DNA of 36,792 nucleotides from an uncultured Lachnospiraceae bacterium (GTDB lineage: Bacteria > Bacillota > Clostridia > Lachnospirales > Lachnospiraceae), in the NCBI GenBank assembly GCA_946623875.1, contig CAMORO010000019.1, positions 1 through 36,792 on the forward strand. The letters are read 5' to 3'. The notes beneath the pieces were generated by a model that worked only from the letters and a program-made list of their open reading frames with translations, was not told the origin of the DNA and did not search any database. The first letter of the stretch is position 1; every line of letters begins with the position of its first letter. Positions 819 to 9,391 of the stretch are shown here, one piece after another. Position numbers and translations under genes: made by a program.

Positions 819-1961
819 ATGAATAAAAAAGAAGTATTTACGGCAGCCTGTGTAGTGGCCGGAAACGGAATGGGCAGCGGAATGATGGCGATTCCCTATT
901 TTGTGGCACATGCGGGAATAGCCGGAGGTATTGTGGCCTTTATTCTCGCCTATATCGTAAGTGTTCTGATGCACCTTATGATAGCCGAGCTGTTAATACA
1001 GACAGATGATACAAAGGATATAACAGGAGTGTTTAACAGATACCTTTTTACCGGGAAGGGAGGTAAGGTGTTAAGACTTCTGTTTTTTTTGATACTTGTA
1101 ACGGTGCTTATAGCCAATCTTGCGGCATATGTTTCGGGAGCTGTCGAAATAATCACACAGCTTGTTCCCATAAGCCCGGCACTGACAAGGCTTGTGTTCT
1201 ATGTCATTGCCTCACTTGTAGTCATCCTCGGTCTTAAGATAATGTGTGTGAGCGAAGTGAGTGCTGTAAGTATAATGAGTGTGCTTTTGGTACTTGCGCT
1301 AGTGTTTTCATTCAGTCATATAAATCCGGGGTTTGGAATTTCTTTGACAGGACCGGCAGGAGCATTTACAGCCCTGTTCAGCATGATAATGTTTTCTTTT
1401 TCCGCGATCTTTGCCGTTCCACAGATTATCGACTACCTTGACCGCGATGCTGGAAAGATAAGAAAATCGGTTTTTATGGGAATTCTCATTAATCTGGTAC
1501 TTTCCGTAACAGTGGCAGTTTGTGCCATGATCACATCGGAGGAGGTCACAAAGATAGCAATAGTGGGCTGGAGCGAGGCAGCAGGCGGAGATATAAAGAT
1601 CCTGGGATCATTAATAATTGTACTTGCAATGCTCACTTCATACTGGTCCATAGGTCTTGCCTCATCTGATATCATATCCAGTCAGACAGGTGCAGGAGAA
1701 GGACTTTCTTTTTCCCTGGCAACACTTCCCGCACTTGTAATAACCTTTATTGCAGGCTCCGGTTTCATGGATTACCTTAAGATAGTAGGAGGAGCTGTTG
1801 CCGTGATCCTTTCATTTATGGTGATACCTTCTTATCTTAAGTGCATGAAGACTGCAGATAATTCAAGAATATTAAAGGGTAAAGAAACTAAGATCCCTGT
1901 CACAGTGTTTGTATTCCTTATGTATATTGCGATGGCTGTGGGATCTGTGATAACGGTTTAG
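819..1961 (+). CDS. Amino acid permease, aromatic/hydroxy amino acid type
   Basis: This is an integral membrane protein of 380 residues with about eleven hydrophobic segments, consistent with the aromatic (Tyr/Trp) and hydroxy amino acid permease branch of the APC superfamily (TyrP/Mtr/SdaC type). The N-terminus carries the glycine-rich first helix typical of the family (AGNGMGSGMMAIP, residues 15-27), which contributes to substrate and ion binding in this fold. The start at 819 follows a modest GGGGAC ribosome site. It sits 32 bases after the ABC ATPase and 17 bases before the first radical SAM gene, so it probably belongs to the same transcript. One reading is that it imports the amino acid used by the radical SAM pathway; that is inference. 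Exact substrate specificity cannot be read from sequence. Confidence 0.82.
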   Translation: MNKKEVFTAACVVAGNGMGSGMMAIPYFVAHAGIAGGIVAFILAYIVSVLMHLMIAELLIQTDDTKDITGVFNRYLFTGKGGKVLRLLFFLILVTVLIANLAAYVSGAVEIITQLVPISPALTRLVFYVIASLVVILGLKIMCVSEVSAVSIMSVLLVLALVFSFSHINPGFGISLTGPAGAFTALFSMIMFSFSAIFAVPQIIDYLDRDAGKIRKSVFMGILINLVLSVTVAVCAMITSEEVTKIAIVGWSEAAGGDIKILGSLIIVLAMLTSYWSIGLASSDIISSQTGAGEGLSFSLATLPALVITFIAGSGFMDYLKIVGGAVAVILSFMVIPSYLKCMKTADNSRILKGKETKIPVTVFVFLMYIAMAVGSVITV

Positions 1962-1978: not shown

Positions 1979-3325
1979 ATGAAGGTTGCTCTTCTGGCTC
2001 CTGCGGGAGCTATGCACAGATATAACGGGATGTTCAGCAAAAACCTGCATTATGCACCTATAACCCTTGCTCTTCTTGCTGCCCTTATCCCCAAGGAGGT
2101 GGATCCTGAGCCTGTTATTTACGATGAAACGGCAGAACCGATCCCTCTTGATCTGTCCGCCGATATAGTGTGTATAACCTGTATCACCGGTACGGCGACG
2201 AGATGCTACAGATATGCCGATTACTTCAGGTCAAGAGGACTGACCGTAATAATAGGAGGTGTGCATCCCACTGTAATGCCAAAGGAAGCTAAGCAGCATG
2301 CGGACAGTGTGATGATCGGGCTCGGTGATGAAACCTTTCCGCAGGCAATAAGGGATTATACAAAGGGTGAGCTTAAGGAATTCTACGAAGGTCATTCATG
2401 TACCGATATTTCGGGACGACCTCTTCCCCGCAAGGATCTTCTTAAAAAAAGCAGATATATAACACTAAATACTGTTGAATGTGTCAGAGGCTGTAATCAT
2501 ACATGTTCCTTTTGTGCCTATCCGTCCGCTTTCGGTCATCATGTTATTACACGACCGGTAAAGGATGTCATAGATGAGATTAAGACCTTCAGGGGAAAGG
2601 TAGTTATTTTTCCCGATGTAAATCTCATAGCCGATATAAGGTATGCAAAAGAGCTGTTCACAGCGATGATACCTCTTAAGAAATGGTGGTTCGGGCTTAC
2701 AACGACAGCAATAGGACACAATGATGAGCTGCTTGAGATATTTAAAAAGAGCGGTTGTAAGGGAATACTTTTGGGGCTTGAATCCGTAAATCAGGAAACG
2801 CAGAAAGATATAAACAAACGGATCAATTCGGTTGATGAATATGAAGACCTTATCCGGAAGCTGCATGATAAGGGTATCCTCATTATGGGCTGCTTTGCCT
2901 TCGGAAGCGATGAGGATGAAAAGGATGTCTTTGAAAGAACGGCGAAGCTGTGTATCGATGCGAAGATCGATCTTCCGAGGTTTTCGATCATAACTCCTTT
3001 TCCCGGAACCCCGTTCTACAACGATCTTAAGGAACAGGACAGGATAACAGAAACCGACTGGTCTCTTTATGATGTTGAGCATGTTGTATACAGGCCGGCA
3101 AATATGACTAAACAGGAGCTTCTTGACGGGATAGACAGTGCATGGCAGGCATGCTATTCATGGAGTGCGATATTTAAACGATTCGATCATAAGAGAATAA
3201 AGAGGTGGTTCTTTATTTATCTTTTATGCAATATCGGTTACAGGAAATATGCAAAGAACTTCAATAAATATGATGAAAGAGTAATGACGGATAATTCGGA
3301 TATACCGGCGGTTTATGAAAAATGA
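1979..3325 (+). CDS. Cobalamin-binding radical SAM protein 1
   Basis: This 448-residue protein has an N-terminal Rossmann-like B12-binding domain (about 1-140), a radical SAM barrel (about 160-380) and a C-terminal extension resembling the DUF4070 part of HpnP-like enzymes. The [4Fe-4S]/SAM motif is Cys172, Cys176, Cys179 (RGCNHTCSFC). The B12 domain has the usual GGVHPTVMP and GLGDE loops, but the DxHxxG position reads D49-E-T-A-E-P, so the cobalt-ligating His is absent. That is common in this class and implies His-off cobalamin. It has a strong ribosome site (AAGGAG). It is the first of four paralogues and the most divergent: it lacks the KWWL motif shared by copies 2-4. It ends in an ATGA overlap with copy 2. 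Such enzymes usually methylate or form C-C bonds at unactivated carbons; the substrate here is unknown. Confidence 0.9.
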   Translation: MKVALLAPAGAMHRYNGMFSKNLHYAPITLALLAALIPKEVDPEPVIYDETAEPIPLDLSADIVCITCITGTATRCYRYADYFRSRGLTVIIGGVHPTVMPKEAKQHADSVMIGLGDETFPQAIRDYTKGELKEFYEGHSCTDISGRPLPRKDLLKKSRYITLNTVECVRGCNHTCSFCAYPSAFGHHVITRPVKDVIDEIKTFRGKVVIFPDVNLIADIRYAKELFTAMIPLKKWWFGLTTTAIGHNDELLEIFKKSGCKGILLGLESVNQETQKDINKRINSVDEYEDLIRKLHDKGILIMGCFAFGSDEDEKDVFERTAKLCIDAKIDLPRFSIITPFPGTPFYNDLKEQDRITETDWSLYDVEHVVYRPANMTKQELLDGIDSAWQACYSWSAIFKRFDHKRIKRWFFIYLLCNIGYRKYAKNFNKYDERVMTDNSDIPAVYEK

Positions 3326-4632
3326 GAATAGTATTTATAAAGGTAAACATGATGTACAGCAAGGGCAGGGATGCCCTGAAGCCTCTTATTTTTCCAATTA
3401 TTGAGTCACTTACGCCAAAAGAACATGATATAGTTTTCTATGACGAAAGGATAGAGGCGCTTCCTGACGTGATAGATGCGGATATCATAGCATTTTCGGT
3501 TGAAACCTTTGCGGCAAGACATGCTTACGAACTGGCCGCAGGATATAAGAGGGATAAAAACAGGATAGTCATGGGAGGATTTCATGCCTCGGCTGTAAAG
3601 GATGAGGTTATGGAGCATGCAGATACGGTTCTTGTTGGTGATGCTGAGGATACGTGGCCTCAGTATCTTAAGGATGTTTCAAACGGATGCGAGAAGAGAG
3701 AGTATATATCCGGAAATACCTGTCCCATATCATTTGTCAGTAACAATGCGCGATGCTACGACGGGAAGAAATATCTTAAGCTTGGGATGATCCAGGCTTC
3801 CAGAGGCTGTAAGTTCAATTGTGATTTCTGTTCGATTAAGAGTCTGTATCCCAAGGGAGTAAGGAAGAAGGATATAGATGAAGTTGTAAGAGAGATAAAA
3901 AACAGCAGGGAGAGACTTTTCTTTTTTATTGATGACAATCTTTTTGTTAATGAAGAGTCGGCAAGGGAGCTTTTTACTGCCATCATTCCGCTTAAGAAAA
4001 AATGGGCCTGTCAGATAAGTCTTGAAATTGCATCAAATAATGAACTGCTTGAGCTTATGCACAATGCAGGCTGTATAATGGTGCTAATAGGCTTTGAATC
4101 CCTTAATCCGAAGAATCTTGAACTTATGAACAAGAGTGCCAATCTTCGTATAAGGGATTACGAGGCGGCAATTGCCAATATATACAGGCACGGTATCATG
4201 ATCTATGGTATGTTTGTGCTGGGATATGACTATGATACGGCTCAGTCGATAAAGGATACATATGATTTTGCTTTACGAAATCATTTTGCGGTTGCCAATT
4301 TCAACCCGTTGATGATACTGCCGGGAACAGAGCTGTTTAAGAGGATGAGTACTGAAGGCAGGTTAAGATATGAGAAATGGTGGCTTGATGACGGATACAG
4401 ATACGGAGATGCCATGTACTATCCCACATCAATGAGCTGTGAAGAGCTGATGCAGGGTTGCAGGGATGCCAGATTTAAGTTTAATTCATTCGGCAATATA
4501 ATACGAAGGATGCTGGGATCAGGAGTGAACCATTCGGGTATTTTTAACTCGACAGTATTTCTTCTTATAAATATCATATCCAGACTGGAAATACACAGAA
4601 AGCAGGGAAAGGCGCTGGGTGAGAGAAAATGA
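3322..4632 (+). CDS. Cobalamin-binding radical SAM protein 2
   Basis: This 436-residue paralogue has the same B12-binding plus radical SAM layout. Cluster cysteines are Cys163, Cys167 and Cys170 (RGCKFNCDFC). The B12-domain segment YDERIEALPD places Arg43 where the DxHxxG histidine would be, and the SVETFAARHAY segment is shared in form with copies 3 and 4. The loop GDAED replaces the common GEGE. The C-terminal region carries KWWL (residues 352-355) followed by a PTSM..EEL segment, again as in copies 3 and 4. The start codon overlaps the stop of copy 1 (ATGA, 3322-3325), so translation is probably coupled. It is presumed to be a cytoplasmic or membrane-peripheral enzyme that cleaves SAM; the reaction is not deducible. 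It could act on a lipid or on a small molecule. Confidence 0.9.
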   Translation: MRIVFIKVNMMYSKGRDALKPLIFPIIESLTPKEHDIVFYDERIEALPDVIDADIIAFSVETFAARHAYELAAGYKRDKNRIVMGGFHASAVKDEVMEHADTVLVGDAEDTWPQYLKDVSNGCEKREYISGNTCPISFVSNNARCYDGKKYLKLGMIQASRGCKFNCDFCSIKSLYPKGVRKKDIDEVVREIKNSRERLFFFIDDNLFVNEESARELFTAIIPLKKKWACQISLEIASNNELLELMHNAGCIMVLIGFESLNPKNLELMNKSANLRIRDYEAAIANIYRHGIMIYGMFVLGYDYDTAQSIKDTYDFALRNHFAVANFNPLMILPGTELFKRMSTEGRLRYEKWWLDDGYRYGDAMYYPTSMSCEELMQGCRDARFKFNSFGNIIRRMLGSGVNHSGIFNSTVFLLINIISRLEIHRKQGKALGERK

Positions 4633-6029
4633 AGATCATACTTATCAAGCCTAATATAGGAAGGCGTGAACACAGCCTGTATGTTGATAATGCCAGCATG
4701 GAACCCTTGCAGCTCGGTGTTCTTGCGGCACTGACACCTGAGGATATAGAAGTTGTTATGTATGATGACAGGCTGGAACCGATCCCCTATGATGAGGAGG
4801 CGGATTTGGTGGCAATAACGGTCGAGACATTTACTGCAAGACGCTCCTATGAGATCGCGGATGAATACAGAAAGCGAGGGACCAGGGTATTAATGGGCGG
4901 AATGCATGTCAAGCTTCTGCCGCAGGAGGTTAAAGAGCATGCGGATTCCATAATGACAGGTGATGCCGAGGATAAGTGGGGCGAGATGCTCTATGACCTT
5001 GCACGGGGTGAGCTTAAGGAGATATATGAATGTGCTCCCGTGTGTGAGGTTCAGAAGGGCGTGATCACGAGGCGTGATATTTATAAAGGCAAAAAATATA
5101 TGCCGATCTCCCTTCTTCAGTTCAGCCGCGGCTGCAGATACAACTGTAAATACTGCGCAAGCAGCGTATATTTTGAAAGAAGACATTTTACAAGGGATGT
5201 GAGTGAGGTTGTAAGAGAGATAAAGTCGCAGAAACGCAGACTGCTTTTCTTTGTGGATGACAATATCGTGGGCGATAAGGAAAAGGCCAAGGAGCTGTTT
5301 CGGGCACTTATACCTCTTAAGATATGGTGGGTAAGTCAGGGCAGTATCGATATGCTTGATGATGACGAGCTTATGCGTCTGATGGTTAAGAGTGGATGCC
5401 TTGGGCTTGTCATAGGATTTGAATCAATAAAACCCGAGAGTATCGAAAACATGCACAAGGGTGTAAACAGGAAATATGTTAATGACCATTACGCGGAGGC
5501 CATAGAGAAGCTCAGGCATTACGGACTTCAGACCTGGGCGGCGTTCACTATAGGTCATGATACGGATACGCTTGAATCCATAGAGGCAACTTACCGTTTT
5601 GCAAGAAGGAACAAGTTCACCTTTGCCGCTTACAATATACTGATGCCCTATCCGAATACCGAGCTGTACGAACAGCTAAAGGCTCAGGGGCGGCTTCTGT
5701 ATGACGGTAAATGGTGGCTTCATGAGGAATACAGGTTCAATTACGCGGCTTTTATTCCAAAGAATATGACTGCTCCCGAGCTGACGGAGGCGGGGTTTGA
5801 ATGCAGGAAGCGGTTTAACAGTGTATCTTCTATCCTGTACAGACTGTTTGAGCCACGCACCAATATGCGCAATCCCGTCAGATTCTTTACTTATCTTATC
5901 TACAATCCGGTGTTTAAGAAGGAAGTATTCGAGAAGCAGGGGATGACTTTCGGATGTAAGGAGAAGGATGATGAAGGTAACATTCATATTGCCGGCGATA
6001 GGCAGGAAAAAGGGCGAGAAATATCTTAA
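4629..6029 (+). CDS. Cobalamin-binding radical SAM protein 3
   Basis: This 466-residue paralogue has an N-terminal B12-binding domain (YDDRLEPIPYD at 45-55, Arg48 in place of the cobalt-ligating His; GGMH and GDAED loops) and a radical SAM barrel with Cys169, Cys173 and Cys176 (RGCRYNCKYC). The KWWL motif is at 361-364. It is translationally coupled to copy 2 by an ATGA overlap. Its C-terminus is about 20 residues longer than the ends of copies 2 and 4. The extra tail is encoded inside the start of copy 4 in another frame and is charged and low-complexity, so it may be a read-through extension created by loss of the original stop codon. The function is as for the neighbours: probable SAM-dependent radical chemistry on an unknown substrate. 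Confidence 0.9.
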   Translation: MKIILIKPNIGRREHSLYVDNASMEPLQLGVLAALTPEDIEVVMYDDRLEPIPYDEEADLVAITVETFTARRSYEIADEYRKRGTRVLMGGMHVKLLPQEVKEHADSIMTGDAEDKWGEMLYDLARGELKEIYECAPVCEVQKGVITRRDIYKGKKYMPISLLQFSRGCRYNCKYCASSVYFERRHFTRDVSEVVREIKSQKRRLLFFVDDNIVGDKEKAKELFRALIPLKIWWVSQGSIDMLDDDELMRLMVKSGCLGLVIGFESIKPESIENMHKGVNRKYVNDHYAEAIEKLRHYGLQTWAAFTIGHDTDTLESIEATYRFARRNKFTFAAYNILMPYPNTELYEQLKAQGRLLYDGKWWLHEEYRFNYAAFIPKNMTAPELTEAGFECRKRFNSVSSILYRLFEPRTNMRNPVRFFTYLIYNPVFKKEVFEKQGMTFGCKEKDDEGNIHIAGDRQEKGREIS

Positions 6030-7299
6030 ATCATGGCTGATGGAGCCGCTTACCATAGCGGTTATGAACACTCTGCTCCCGGAGGGGGTCGAGAGGGAAT
6101 TTTATGATGACAGGATTGAGAGTATCAATTATGATACAGATTCGGATATCGTGTTTATTACCGTGGAAACCTATACGGCAAAAAGAGCGTATTATATTGC
6201 CGGCAGGTTCAGAGAAAAGGGAAAGACAGTGGTTCTCGGAGGCTATCATGTAACGCTGATGCCGCAGGAAGCGCAGGAACATTGTGATGCTGTCATGATA
6301 AATAACTGCGGGGACAATATGAAAGCCCTTATAAAAGATTATGAGACCGGCAATCTTAAGGAAAGATATGTCGGGAAACCCTGTATAGACTATAAGATAG
6401 CAGACCGTTCGATTTACAGGGATAAGCAGAAGAAATATCTTCCGGTCTCATTGGTCGAGACGGGAAGAGGCTGTTATCATAACTGTGAATTCTGCTCCAT
6501 AGCGAAATATTATGATTCAAAGTATATACATCGTGAGGTTGAGGATATAATAGCGGAAATGAGATCGTGTAAACACAAGCTGTTTTTCCTTGTGGATGAC
6601 AGCATCTTTTCCGATAAAGCGTTTGCAAAAGAACTGTTTAAGGAGATAAAAAAGCTTAAGGTAACCTGGACAACTCAGATAACCCTTGATATAGCAAGAG
6701 ATGATGAGACTCTTAAGCTTATGAGGGACAGCGGCTGCTCCATGGTGCTTATAGGCTTTGAGTCTATCAACGGAGACAATCTGAAACAGATGAATAAGGA
6801 ATGGACACAGCGTCTTGGGGAGAGGGATGAGCTTATTGAAAAGATCCATGCGGCCGGGATCAGTATATATGCATCCTTTGTGTTTGGTTTTGATGAGGAT
6901 GCGGAAGAGAGCTTTGTCAGGACACTTGAATTTACCAGAAAGCATCAGTTCTTCGTTGTAGCCTTTAACCATCTGCTGACCTTCCCCAATACGCCTACAT
7001 ATAAGGTATTTGCCAAGGAACATCGTCTTATCTGTGATAAGTGGTGGCTTCAGGAGGGATACACCTTCGGTACCATATCCTTTGTTCCCAAGCGTGTCAG
7101 CGCGGATGAGCTCCGTGCCCTTTGCAGGAAGTACAGAAAACAGTTCTTTAAATTTTCATCGATAGTGAGCAGAGGGATAACCTGTCTAAAGAGGACAAGG
7201 AATCCGTTTATCAACTTTGCATATTGGTTTATCAACATATTGTTCCATTTTGAGGTGGATAAGAGGCTGGGGATACCTGTAGGTGAGAATCTTGAATGA
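5968..7299 (+). CDS. Cobalamin-binding radical SAM protein 4
   Basis: This 443-residue paralogue has cluster cysteines Cys169, Cys173 and Cys176 (RGCYHNCEFC) and KWWL at 358-361. In the B12 domain, YDDRIESINYD places Arg49 at the missing-His position. The loop that is GEGE, GLGDE or GDAED in relatives reads NNCGD here, so cobalamin binding may be altered. The start is taken as the ATG at 5968 (ATG ATG doublet) because an AAGGAGAAGG ribosome site precedes it and the N-terminus (MKVTFILPAIGR) aligns with copy 3. This makes a genuine 62-base overlap with copy 3. The stop overlaps the next gene by ATGA. It is the last of the radical SAM series. Substrate is unknown. Confidence 0.9.
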   Translation: MMKVTFILPAIGRKKGEKYLKSWLMEPLTIAVMNTLLPEGVEREFYDDRIESINYDTDSDIVFITVETYTAKRAYYIAGRFREKGKTVVLGGYHVTLMPQEAQEHCDAVMINNCGDNMKALIKDYETGNLKERYVGKPCIDYKIADRSIYRDKQKKYLPVSLVETGRGCYHNCEFCSIAKYYDSKYIHREVEDIIAEMRSCKHKLFFLVDDSIFSDKAFAKELFKEIKKLKVTWTTQITLDIARDDETLKLMRDSGCSMVLIGFESINGDNLKQMNKEWTQRLGERDELIEKIHAAGISIYASFVFGFDEDAEESFVRTLEFTRKHQFFVVAFNHLLTFPNTPTYKVFAKEHRLICDKWWLQEGYTFGTISFVPKRVSADELRALCRKYRKQFFKFSSIVSRGITCLKRTRNPFINFAYWFINILFHFEVDKRLGIPVGENLE

Positions 7300-8435
7300 A
7301 ACATTTGAATTTGTGTAAAAAGAACAGTGAAAGAAATAACAAACCGGTATTATGTCCCGGCTGTAATAATGACGGATATTACCCTGCTGTCAAAGAGGAC
7401 GGTGATGAGATCCTTAAGATAATGGAAGAGGATGCAGCCCCCGGCGATATAAGCCTTTTGTATACAAGAAGGGACAATCCGTATACATCTTTCCTGATGG
7501 AAAATAAGGATTCACAGGTAGGTGTCATCAGAATGAACGGAAGGGTGGTTGCGACAATAGGTGCCATTCCGAGGGATATGTATATTAACGGTGAAAGAAA
7601 AAGAGTATGCTATGTCACTAATATGAAACGGCTTAAGTCCTGTGATGCTCCCGTTAACTGGCATAAGATGTTTGCCGATATGTGCAGGAAGGTTGACTGT
7701 GATGTATATTACTGTTCCCTGATAGAGGATAATACGGATGTCCGCAGGATGCTTGCAAAGAAACGCCGGTTTATGCCGTATACAACCCCAATATGCACAT
7801 ATAAAACATATATAATCAGCACAAAAGTAAGGCTTGGGGCGGACTGTAAGGGATATGAATTTACAAAATCCGGTAAAGCGGATGAGGCTGACCTGCTTGG
7901 ATTTCTCAAAAGATGCGGAAGAGATCGCAATTTCTTTCCGGTTTTTGAGAGATTGCCGGATGTTGGTGATATCAAGACAGAGGATTTTTATATACTTAAG
8001 AGGAACGGGGTTATCATTGCAGCAGGCGCAGTATGGGACAGAAGGAATGTCAAACAGTATGTGCTTAACAGATGTAAGGGTATATATGCGCTGTTAAGAT
8101 GCATCAATCCCGTTATTTCCGCACTTGGATATATTAAGCTCCCCAAGGACGATACGGTGGTGGATCTGGCTTTTCTTTCATTCCTGCTTTCAGATGACGG
8201 GGATGAAGAGAAATACAGGATCTTCATTTCGCTGCTTTTAAAGGAAATGTCGGATAAATATCCTATGCTGGTTATCGGAACCGATATAAACAATCCCAAG
8301 TACAGAGTGCTTGAGAAGATACGTTCCATATCCTTTAAGACAGAGATAAATGAGGTCATAATGACAAATATAGATTCAAAAACCCCACCGTCCTTTGATC
8401 ATTGCAATATAGAAATCGAATGTGCTCTGTTGTAG
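7296..8435 (+). CDS. GNAT-like protein in the radical SAM operon
   Basis: I do not recognise this 379-residue protein at family level. It looks like a GNAT-fold protein: a strand-rich segment (about 68-100, VGVIRMNGRVVATIGAIP) resembles the central acetyltransferase sheet, and a second similar half (about 190-350) suggests a tandem GNAT arrangement. The N-terminus carries a short CPGC motif (Cys20, Cys23) that could bind metal. There is no signal peptide and no convincing membrane helix. It is joined to radical SAM copy 4 by an ATGA overlap, so it is almost certainly co-expressed. An acyl, acetyl or aminoacyl transfer to the product of the radical enzymes is a reasonable guess. It ends 23 bases before the convergent glycosidase gene. 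Confidence 0.6.
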   Translation: MKHLNLCKKNSERNNKPVLCPGCNNDGYYPAVKEDGDEILKIMEEDAAPGDISLLYTRRDNPYTSFLMENKDSQVGVIRMNGRVVATIGAIPRDMYINGERKRVCYVTNMKRLKSCDAPVNWHKMFADMCRKVDCDVYYCSLIEDNTDVRRMLAKKRRFMPYTTPICTYKTYIISTKVRLGADCKGYEFTKSGKADEADLLGFLKRCGRDRNFFPVFERLPDVGDIKTEDFYILKRNGVIIAAGAVWDRRNVKQYVLNRCKGIYALLRCINPVISALGYIKLPKDDTVVDLAFLSFLLSDDGDEEKYRIFISLLLKEMSDKYPMLVIGTDINNPKYRVLEKIRSISFKTEINEVIMTNIDSKTPPSFDHCNIEIECALL

Positions 8436-8458: not shown

Positions 8459-9391
8459 TTACTTCGTTGTATCAAAATACCTTTTGACCACCTCTTGTGC
8501 AGGTTTGGCATAAATATCATATCCCGTGTCGTTAAGCGCATCCTTACTGCAGTAGAGCTTAAGGCTCCAGTCCCATAAAAAGAAGCCGCCGACAAAATCA
8601 CGTTTATCACAGGCATTGAACATGGTTTCATACCATCTTGCCTGTTCTTCGGGTGCGGGAGATCCATTAATGGTCCAGTCATTTGGAACATTCATTGATC
8701 CTTTGGTTGATTTACAGCCTGCCTCGGCAAAGAAGAAGGGTTTATTAAATTTTTTTACTACGGCTTCGATGCGGTCAAGCTGTGCTTCCCAGTCATTTAT
8801 GGGGTAATAGCCGCTTGAACAGATGTAGTCCACACAATCCCACCAGGTAACATTGTCCTCCTGATATTTATCGGTATTGTAAGTGAGAGGCCCATGATAA
8901 ACCTTTCTTATTTCAGAAATAACGTTTCGCCATTCCGCTTCCCTGTGTTCCGACTGAACCATTTCGCAGCCGGCTATGAACATGTCACAGCCTGTTTCCT
9001 CGGCAAGCTCTGCGTAGTGAAGCTGGAAATCCGTATATGCCTTAAACCATATTGACCATTTGGGTTCACAGGGAACATCCTTGTCAAAGAAACAGATATG
9101 TGCTCTCCAGGTTCCGTTCTTACAGTTAACGGTAGGCTTGATGGCAACCTTCAGTCCCTTAGAATGAATGTAATCTATCATTTTTTTCAATTCATCATCC
9201 CTAAGGTTTGCCGGAGAAGTATAATCGATCTCCTGAGACTGAGGAGTTTCCTGAAGACCATTCGGAACCAGTATTATGTAATTGGCTCCTGTTCCGTCAA
9301 TGAGTTTATCAAGGCTGTCATATGCCTGTTTCTTTTCAAATGAGCCTGCTCCGGCAAATGCCCCGAAGGTGATTCCTTTAATGTAGTCCAT
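8459..9391 (-). CDS. GH113-type glycoside hydrolase
   Basis: This 310-residue single TIM-barrel protein resembles glycoside hydrolase family 113, whose known members cleave beta-1,4-mannosidic bonds. Likely catalytic residues are acid/base Glu143 (AGCEM, end of strand 4) and nucleophile Glu223 (FFFAEAGC, end of strand 7), spaced as in characterised GH113 enzymes. The first strand reads KGITFGAFAGAGSF. Aromatic subsite residues (Trp183, Trp184, Tyr195, Tyr196) are present. No signal peptide is seen, so it would act in the cytoplasm on imported manno-oligosaccharides. The start at 9391 has an AAAGGAA ribosome site. It is on the opposite strand from the radical SAM operon and follows the MATE gene by 80 bases. 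The family call is fairly secure; mannan specificity is from family knowledge. Confidence 0.85.
   Translation of the reverse strand: MDYIKGITFGAFAGAGSFEKKQAYDSLDKLIDGTGANYIILVPNGLQETPQSQEIDYTSPANLRDDELKKMIDYIHSKGLKVAIKPTVNCKNGTWRAHICFFDKDVPCEPKWSIWFKAYTDFQLHYAELAEETGCDMFIAGCEMVQSEHREAEWRNVISEIRKVYHGPLTYNTDKYQEDNVTWWDCVDYICSSGYYPINDWEAQLDRIEAVVKKFNKPFFFAEAGCKSTKGSMNVPNDWTINGSPAPEEQARWYETMFNACDKRDFVGGFFLWDWSLKLYCSKDALNDTGYDIYAKPAQEVVKRYFDTTK

Follow-up and report, generated by a model that had tools for sequence, protein, structure and literature searches.

The stretch of DNA analysed here, called the window, comprises 36,792 nucleotides (nt) of an uncultured Lachnospiraceae bacterium with relatives among rumen microbes (assembly GCA_946623875.1, contig CAMORO010000019.1, positions 1-36,792, forward strand) and carries four consecutive genes for B12-binding-type radical SAM proteins (A, B, C and D), which are preceded by a permease gene (Perm) and followed by a GNAT-like gene (E). 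Comparison with other genomes suggests, with a probability of about one half, that these genes belong to a dedicated biosynthetic pathway, spread by horizontal transfer and present here in its type 1 form, in which up to five old B12-binding-type radical SAM paralogues (A to D and a further one, A') would each take a step of their own on one substrate series. Gene content, gene overlap, synteny, co-occurrence and phylogeny are the observations on which this reading is built.

Conservation and rarity of the cluster

When named genome contigs were scanned with C, 26 loci emerged, all of them holding cluster genes. They are mostly metagenome-assembled, bear the titles Lachnospiraceae, Butyrivibrio, Oscillospiraceae, Ruminococcus, Clostridiaceae and others, and include the named strain Butyrivibrio sp. 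NC2007; two of them (L031 and L038) come from a single assembly. The best segment of C is 66-88% identical in 25 of the 26 and 43% identical in L038, which is truncated. The cluster genes also lie together on a Citrobacter plasmid described below, and the cluster is conserved outside Lachnospiraceae too.

Two gene orders recur. Type 1, that of the window, reads permease-A-(A')-B-C-D-E and is found with Perm in 14 of the 26 loci (L031 stops within D). Type 2 reads (A')-B-C-f2-GH3-A-D-E, where f2 is GNAT-like and GH3 belongs to the acid-amine ligase family; it is found with both of these genes in nine loci (L027 stops within D), and the other three are cut off on the left. A' lies within the cluster in 5/14 type 1 loci (L019, L020, L021, L023, L024) and 4/9 type 2 loci (L029, L033, L034, L036). 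In a wider set of 42 sequences, Perm is present in 19, f2 with GH3 in 19, both together in none and neither in four truncated sequences; the set includes duplicates (L053 = L032, L088 = L027, L123 = L016) and two sequences of one genome (L091 and L092), and two of its f2-GH3 sequences, from Burkholderia and Acinetobacter, have no radical SAM matches. The smallest sets, as read at the locus, consist of f2, GH3, A, D and E in varying order (L054, L093, L090).

With the window genome counted, 12 of 145 relatives have E, and three of 291 class genomes match C at 1e-100, G275 through its D. At 1e-60, matches to C occur in 42 of 398 phylum genomes, 36 of which have a single match. More than one is found only in the window genome, G539, G583, G632, G659 and G733, and the last five carry the cluster; the gene contexts inspected were those of the window genome, these five and six more of the 42. 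The f2 gene is present in 4/398 phylum genomes (G539, G583, G659, G733), all four with the radical SAM cluster, and the cluster of G632 is of type 1 with the permease.

A distinct cluster was observed in Acetoanaerobium noterae (NZ_CP154629.1; L086:6670-12679), with four consecutive radical SAM genes around a small methyltransferase gene, two of the four having a B12-binding domain above the cut-off. It is resembled by L098:9311-13954, with three radical SAM-like genes. A single copy in each is close to C, and this type is possibly a second multi-radical-SAM pathway.

The radical SAM paralogues

The four proteins match the Pfam model Radical_SAM (PF04055) above its cut-off (E-values 4.8e-15 to 2.1e-20), and CxxxCxxC is present in all 63 cluster radical SAM rows. 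With the B12-binding model (PF02310), A scores 38.1 bits, above the curated cut-off of 32.1. Identity to A is 29% for B, 34% for C and 32% for D. A first-pass annotation of this DNA had reported three motifs common to B, C and D, and these are as stated: YD-x-R-x-E (YDERIE, YDDRLE and YDDRIE), VET-x-x-A-x-x-x-Y (VETFAARHAY, VETFTARRSY and VETYTAKRAY) and a C-terminal KWWL, lacking in A. The KWWL difference is systematic, with WW near the C-terminus in 38/38 B, C and D rows and 0/25 A and A' rows.

The same annotation described the four radical SAM genes and E as consecutive and overlapping, which the open reading frames (ORFs) bear out: A/B, B/C and D/E overlap by 4 nt each (ATGA), and C/D by 62 nt. 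The N-terminus of D aligns with the N-termini of the other copies, so the long overlap is not merely a misplaced start.

The fifth paralogue lies elsewhere in the window genome. A genome-wide scan for the B12-binding domain gave eight matches, four of them in the window; outside it, the match on contig C57 is A' (C57:7279-8574), 58.6% identical to an in-cluster Butyrivibrio A', and that on C53 is a distant radical SAM protein, while a match on C5 was dropped, as no radical SAM match accompanies it. In 41 genomes (37 of the genus and four others of the family, with cluster positivity decided by E), A' at more than 600 bits occurs in 6/11 cluster-positive and 0/30 cluster-negative genomes (Fisher p = 1.0e-4, a guide only, since these are incomplete genomes of related bacteria). 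G002 has it within the cluster, and the other five on a separate contig. A link between A' and an alpha/beta hydrolase on C57 was also considered and dropped, the hydrolase not adjoining A' in G036, G009, G014 and G018.

A tblastn search of plasmids with D returned nine records, among them NZ_CP134684.1 of Citrobacter portucalensis, which is matched at five places. The genes there run f2-GH3-A-D-E-B-C-PAP2-hypothetical, and the opposite strand carries A' and a desaturase; relatives of all eight cluster genes are thus present. Each of its radical SAM genes scores highest with its own class, A' over A narrowly (350 vs 346 bits), and its A is 45.6% identical to an A row. Nothing close to this cluster was found in E. 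coli genomes.

In a careful tree of 77 rows (four of 81 were dropped, three as long branches and one as a duplicate), support is 100/99 for B, 100/100 for C, 100/92 for D and 85/86 for A, and A' has 100% bootstrap; B, C and D are joined at 100/100, and A and A' at 100/99. The Citrobacter copies fall inside the B, C, D, A and A' groups. The five paralogues are thus old groups, each with a gammaproteobacterial member, and since they span two phyla, the duplications are old and predate the spread of the cluster. The earlier suggestion of a local tandem duplication is not supported. The sharing of all five groups further indicates that the genes were passed on together, by inheritance or by transfer. 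The division of labour proposed alongside, within a single pathway, is supported, as the paralogues occur together in distant genomes and A' co-occurs from another contig.

Accompanying genes

The coordinates of the window genes are given in Table 1. The permease gene, whose end lies 17 nt upstream of A, regularly belongs to clusters of type 1; neither this nor the fifth paralogue had been part of the first-pass annotation.

Table 1. Genes of the cluster in the window, with positions in nt
Gene	Position	Strand	Product and remarks
Perm	819..1961	+	Trp/Tyr permease-like transporter; PF03222 64.3 bits (cut-off 22); type 1 member
A	1979..3325	+	B12-binding-type radical SAM protein; core member; C-terminal DWSLY, no KWWL
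B	3322..4632	+	B12-binding-type radical SAM protein
C	4629..6029	+	B12-binding-type radical SAM protein; best conserved of the copies
D	5968..7299	+	B12-binding-type radical SAM protein; core member; lowest B12-binding score
E	7296..8435	+	GNAT-like protein; probably two GNAT units (from length and sequence reading)

Neither the window's E nor the L018 member has a Pfam match. The family member in L033 matches Acetyltransf_1 (PF00583) at 5.3e-8, above the cut-off, and those of L022, L052 and L054 score below the acetyltransferase cut-off. The E profile aligns over 304-335 columns with E-like proteins from Acinetobacter, Burkholderia and Citrobacter. Searches of the PDB gave no match with the E profile and only E-values of 0.14 or worse with the f2 profile. 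Common descent of E and f2 is not claimed, the match between them being weak (E-value 0.0013, probability 18%).

The GH3 protein of L028 matches PF03321 at 8.9e-43. GH3 enzymes couple acids with amines, and OlsH, a GH3-like lyso-ornithine lipid synthetase, produces N-acyl ornithine using ATP (PMC12493201). The type 2 GH3 belongs to the same superfamily, and the three nucleotide-binding motifs given in that paper are recognisable in it. The L028 protein reaches 46.9 bits with the OlsH model (NF052613), against a cut-off of 620. The OlsH operon combines a methyltransferase with OlsI and has no radical SAM genes (PMC12493201); the window cluster, in turn, has no GH3.

Several neighbouring genes were noted. 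The ATP-binding end of an ABC exporter (52-786), clipped by the contig start, lies 32 nt before Perm; the other type 1 loci that were read have different genes there instead, and its membership of the cluster was rejected. Directly after E, outside the cluster, a GH113 glycoside hydrolase gene (444 bits) lies on the minus strand at 8459-9391. An Mbeg1-like gene follows E in six loci (e.g. L015:12774-13913, L013:12807-13997), and an alpha/beta-hydrolase-like gene stands between the permease and A in L013 (4881-6248), with an ORF of equal length there in L017. Rfam and tRNA searches of the window gave no match.

The trio of f2, E and GH3 also occurs without radical SAM genes. In Burkholderia arboris (L100), a 21-kb stretch without a radical SAM match holds it together with genes for three FA_desaturase proteins, a Rieske/VanA_C oxygenase and a PF10118 protein. 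In Acinetobacter baumannii (L103:2228-12838), genes for a LuxR-type regulator, an amidase, an HlyD-type protein and an MFS protein are followed by f2, GH3, an outer-membrane efflux gene and E, which possibly serve an exported acyl-amino conjugate. Profile alignment of E with hhalign gave probabilities of 98.7 for the Burkholderia and 97.7 for the Acinetobacter protein, at pairwise identities of 19-23%. The Citrobacter and Burkholderia desaturases are related (26% identity, 1e-22). The Citrobacter PAP2 protein (32.6 bits, cut-off 27.2) has a weak match (22 bits) with a Burkholderia PAP2-desaturase protein, whose PAP2 part is under the cut-off (21.5 bits).

Discussion

What we infer throughout concerns the substrate, the reactions and the order of the steps. 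In type 2 loci, the ATP-dependent GH3 ligase and the GNAT-like f2 and E would build an amide-linked acyl-amino conjugate, on which A and D may carry out the first radical modifications under anaerobic conditions; these two are placed first because the smallest clusters read have no other radical enzymes. Further radical modifications would then be added by B, C and A'. In type 1 loci, the permease would replace GH3 and f2, which are absent from the cluster, and its presence in their stead suggests that it probably imports an amino-acid-like substrate or an intermediate.

No curated cut-off of an NCBIfam equivalog is reached by A-D. The best model for the window's A (102.5 bits) and for A' of the same genome (102.9 bits) is BchE (TIGR02026), the anaerobic Mg-protoporphyrin monomethyl ester cyclase, which likewise has B12-binding-type and radical SAM domains. 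The cluster enzymes differ from it in score (A-D reach 71.3-102.5 bits, the cut-off being 481.35) and in forming a set of up to five paralogues, and no tetrapyrrole gene is found among the scanned window genes. The architecture is also shared with two hopanoid enzymes, HpnJ (TIGR03471; 88.9-94.5 bits, cut-off 577.6), with which B, C and D score highest, and HpnR (TIGR04367; 43.9-65.2 bits, cut-off 650); no HpnP model is among the NCBIfam matches listed, which are the best 25 for A and for D. A profile of A-D matches seven PDB sequences at an E-value of 0.001, the nearest being AprD4 (6fd2, 2.7e-17), 9ccb (1.7e-12) and a tryptophan C2-methyltransferase (6wte, 1.7e-9). For these three, whose substrates differ, the aligned region is confined to the radical SAM part (profile 159-376 of 442).

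As the predicted chemistry, BchE-like anaerobic oxidation (hydroxylation, desaturation or ring closure) would rank slightly above methylation, because A and A' score best with BchE and because the Burkholderia trio stands beside O2-dependent enzymes; the pair is reminiscent of BchE, whose oxygen comes from water, and its O2-using counterpart AcsF (PMC7242693). A bolder proposal, which we consider doubtful, is that the pathway is an anaerobic B12-radical counterpart of O2-dependent acyl-chain oxidation. The five paralogues might then oxidise, desaturate or couple a GH3-made conjugate into a new class of amino-lipid-like metabolites, with the genes moving between phyla, also by plasmid, and in an aerobe desaturases and the Rieske oxygenase might carry out the equivalent steps on the same conjugate.

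Methylases are numerous among the B12 radical SAM enzymes that have been characterised, and the radical enzymes of the cluster might accordingly be successive methylcobalamin-dependent C-methylases on one substrate, in line with the successive methylations that the first-pass annotation had offered as an example. The model of the P-methyltransferase PhpK gives 73-84 bits for A-D and surpasses BchE in B and C, although neither its cut-off (600) nor that of any other methylase equivalog, HpnR included, is reached, and the desaturase and Rieske context of the Burkholderia trio fits oxidation at least equally; we therefore hold this alternative to be somewhat unlikely. A lipid product, in particular a membrane-spanning lipid made by C-C coupling of acyl chains in the manner of tetraether synthase (Tes) or bacterial membrane-spanning lipid synthase (MSS), with GH3 making an amino-lipid head, would agree with the distant match of the L028 GH3 to OlsH (PMC12493201), with the FA_desaturase genes of Citrobacter and Burkholderia and the Citrobacter PAP2 gene, and with scores of 52.3-74.3 bits to TIGR04072, a B12 radical SAM model of ladderane-type lipid biosynthesis. 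The cut-offs of the OlsH and TIGR04072 models (the latter 360) are far higher than these scores, and type 1 loci hold an amino-acid-type permease instead of GH3 and f2. Tes structures are deposited in the PDB, yet none of the seven matches is so labelled, one (9ccb) bearing a generic name. On balance such a lipid seems unlikely. It is very improbable that independent housekeeping or scavenging enzymes lie adjacent by chance: related single-copy genes do exist in the phylum, as the matches to C at 1e-60 indicate, but the set itself is rare and patchy, and its genes are reordered yet remain together across phyla, with A' co-occurring from another contig.

Several observations weigh against the dedicated pathway proposed here, or against its predicted chemistry. 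The B12-binding scores of B, C and D (30.1, 28.8 and 24.4 bits; E-values 4.8e-7 to 2.7e-5) are under the cut-off, and DxHxxG is found in the first 60 residues of 0/81 rows, so that cobalamin use by the cluster enzymes is predicted by homology only. HpnJ outranks BchE for B, C and D, as it does for A of L052 (87.3 vs 69.0 bits), and PhpK likewise outranks it for B and C; support for oxidative chemistry is thin. No GH3 in the window genome, which is 83% complete, exceeds the cut-off (best 18.9 vs 23.6 bits). A' is missing from 5/11 cluster-positive genomes (one of them 59% complete) and is therefore not essential. C is divided over two ORFs in L025 (4941-6338) and L031 (4458-5822), as are both C and D in L038 (1-1928), through either assembly error or gene decay. 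The Burkholderia E is distant (19% identity, 77 bits) and, as a query among plasmids, matched itself alone, while f2-like genes of Azospirillum have no GH3 or E match in the 16.7-kb stretches read, so f2 is not strictly tied to the set. Citrobacter retains a desaturase beside all five radical enzymes, and both desaturase and radical SAM genes are missing around the Acinetobacter trio; given these two contexts, the idea of a replacement of O2-dependent steps rests on one locus.

Conclusions

Biosynthetic clusters with B12 radical SAM enzymes are known as a kind, and the present form would be a new one among them. In keeping with the first-pass annotation, which knew of no characterised pathway with this layout, no published account of the cluster or of a matching pathway was found in the open-access full-text literature, a search outside which most subscription papers fall. 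To our knowledge, the B12 radical SAM superfamily has many members without a known substrate. The present analysis places five paralogues in one probable pathway, with cluster forms that have two, four and five radical enzymes, so that the order of steps may be read by comparing their products. The conserved acid-amine ligase and the alternative permease are direct clues to the substrate, and a named Butyrivibrio strain and the plasmid form make the pathway testable.

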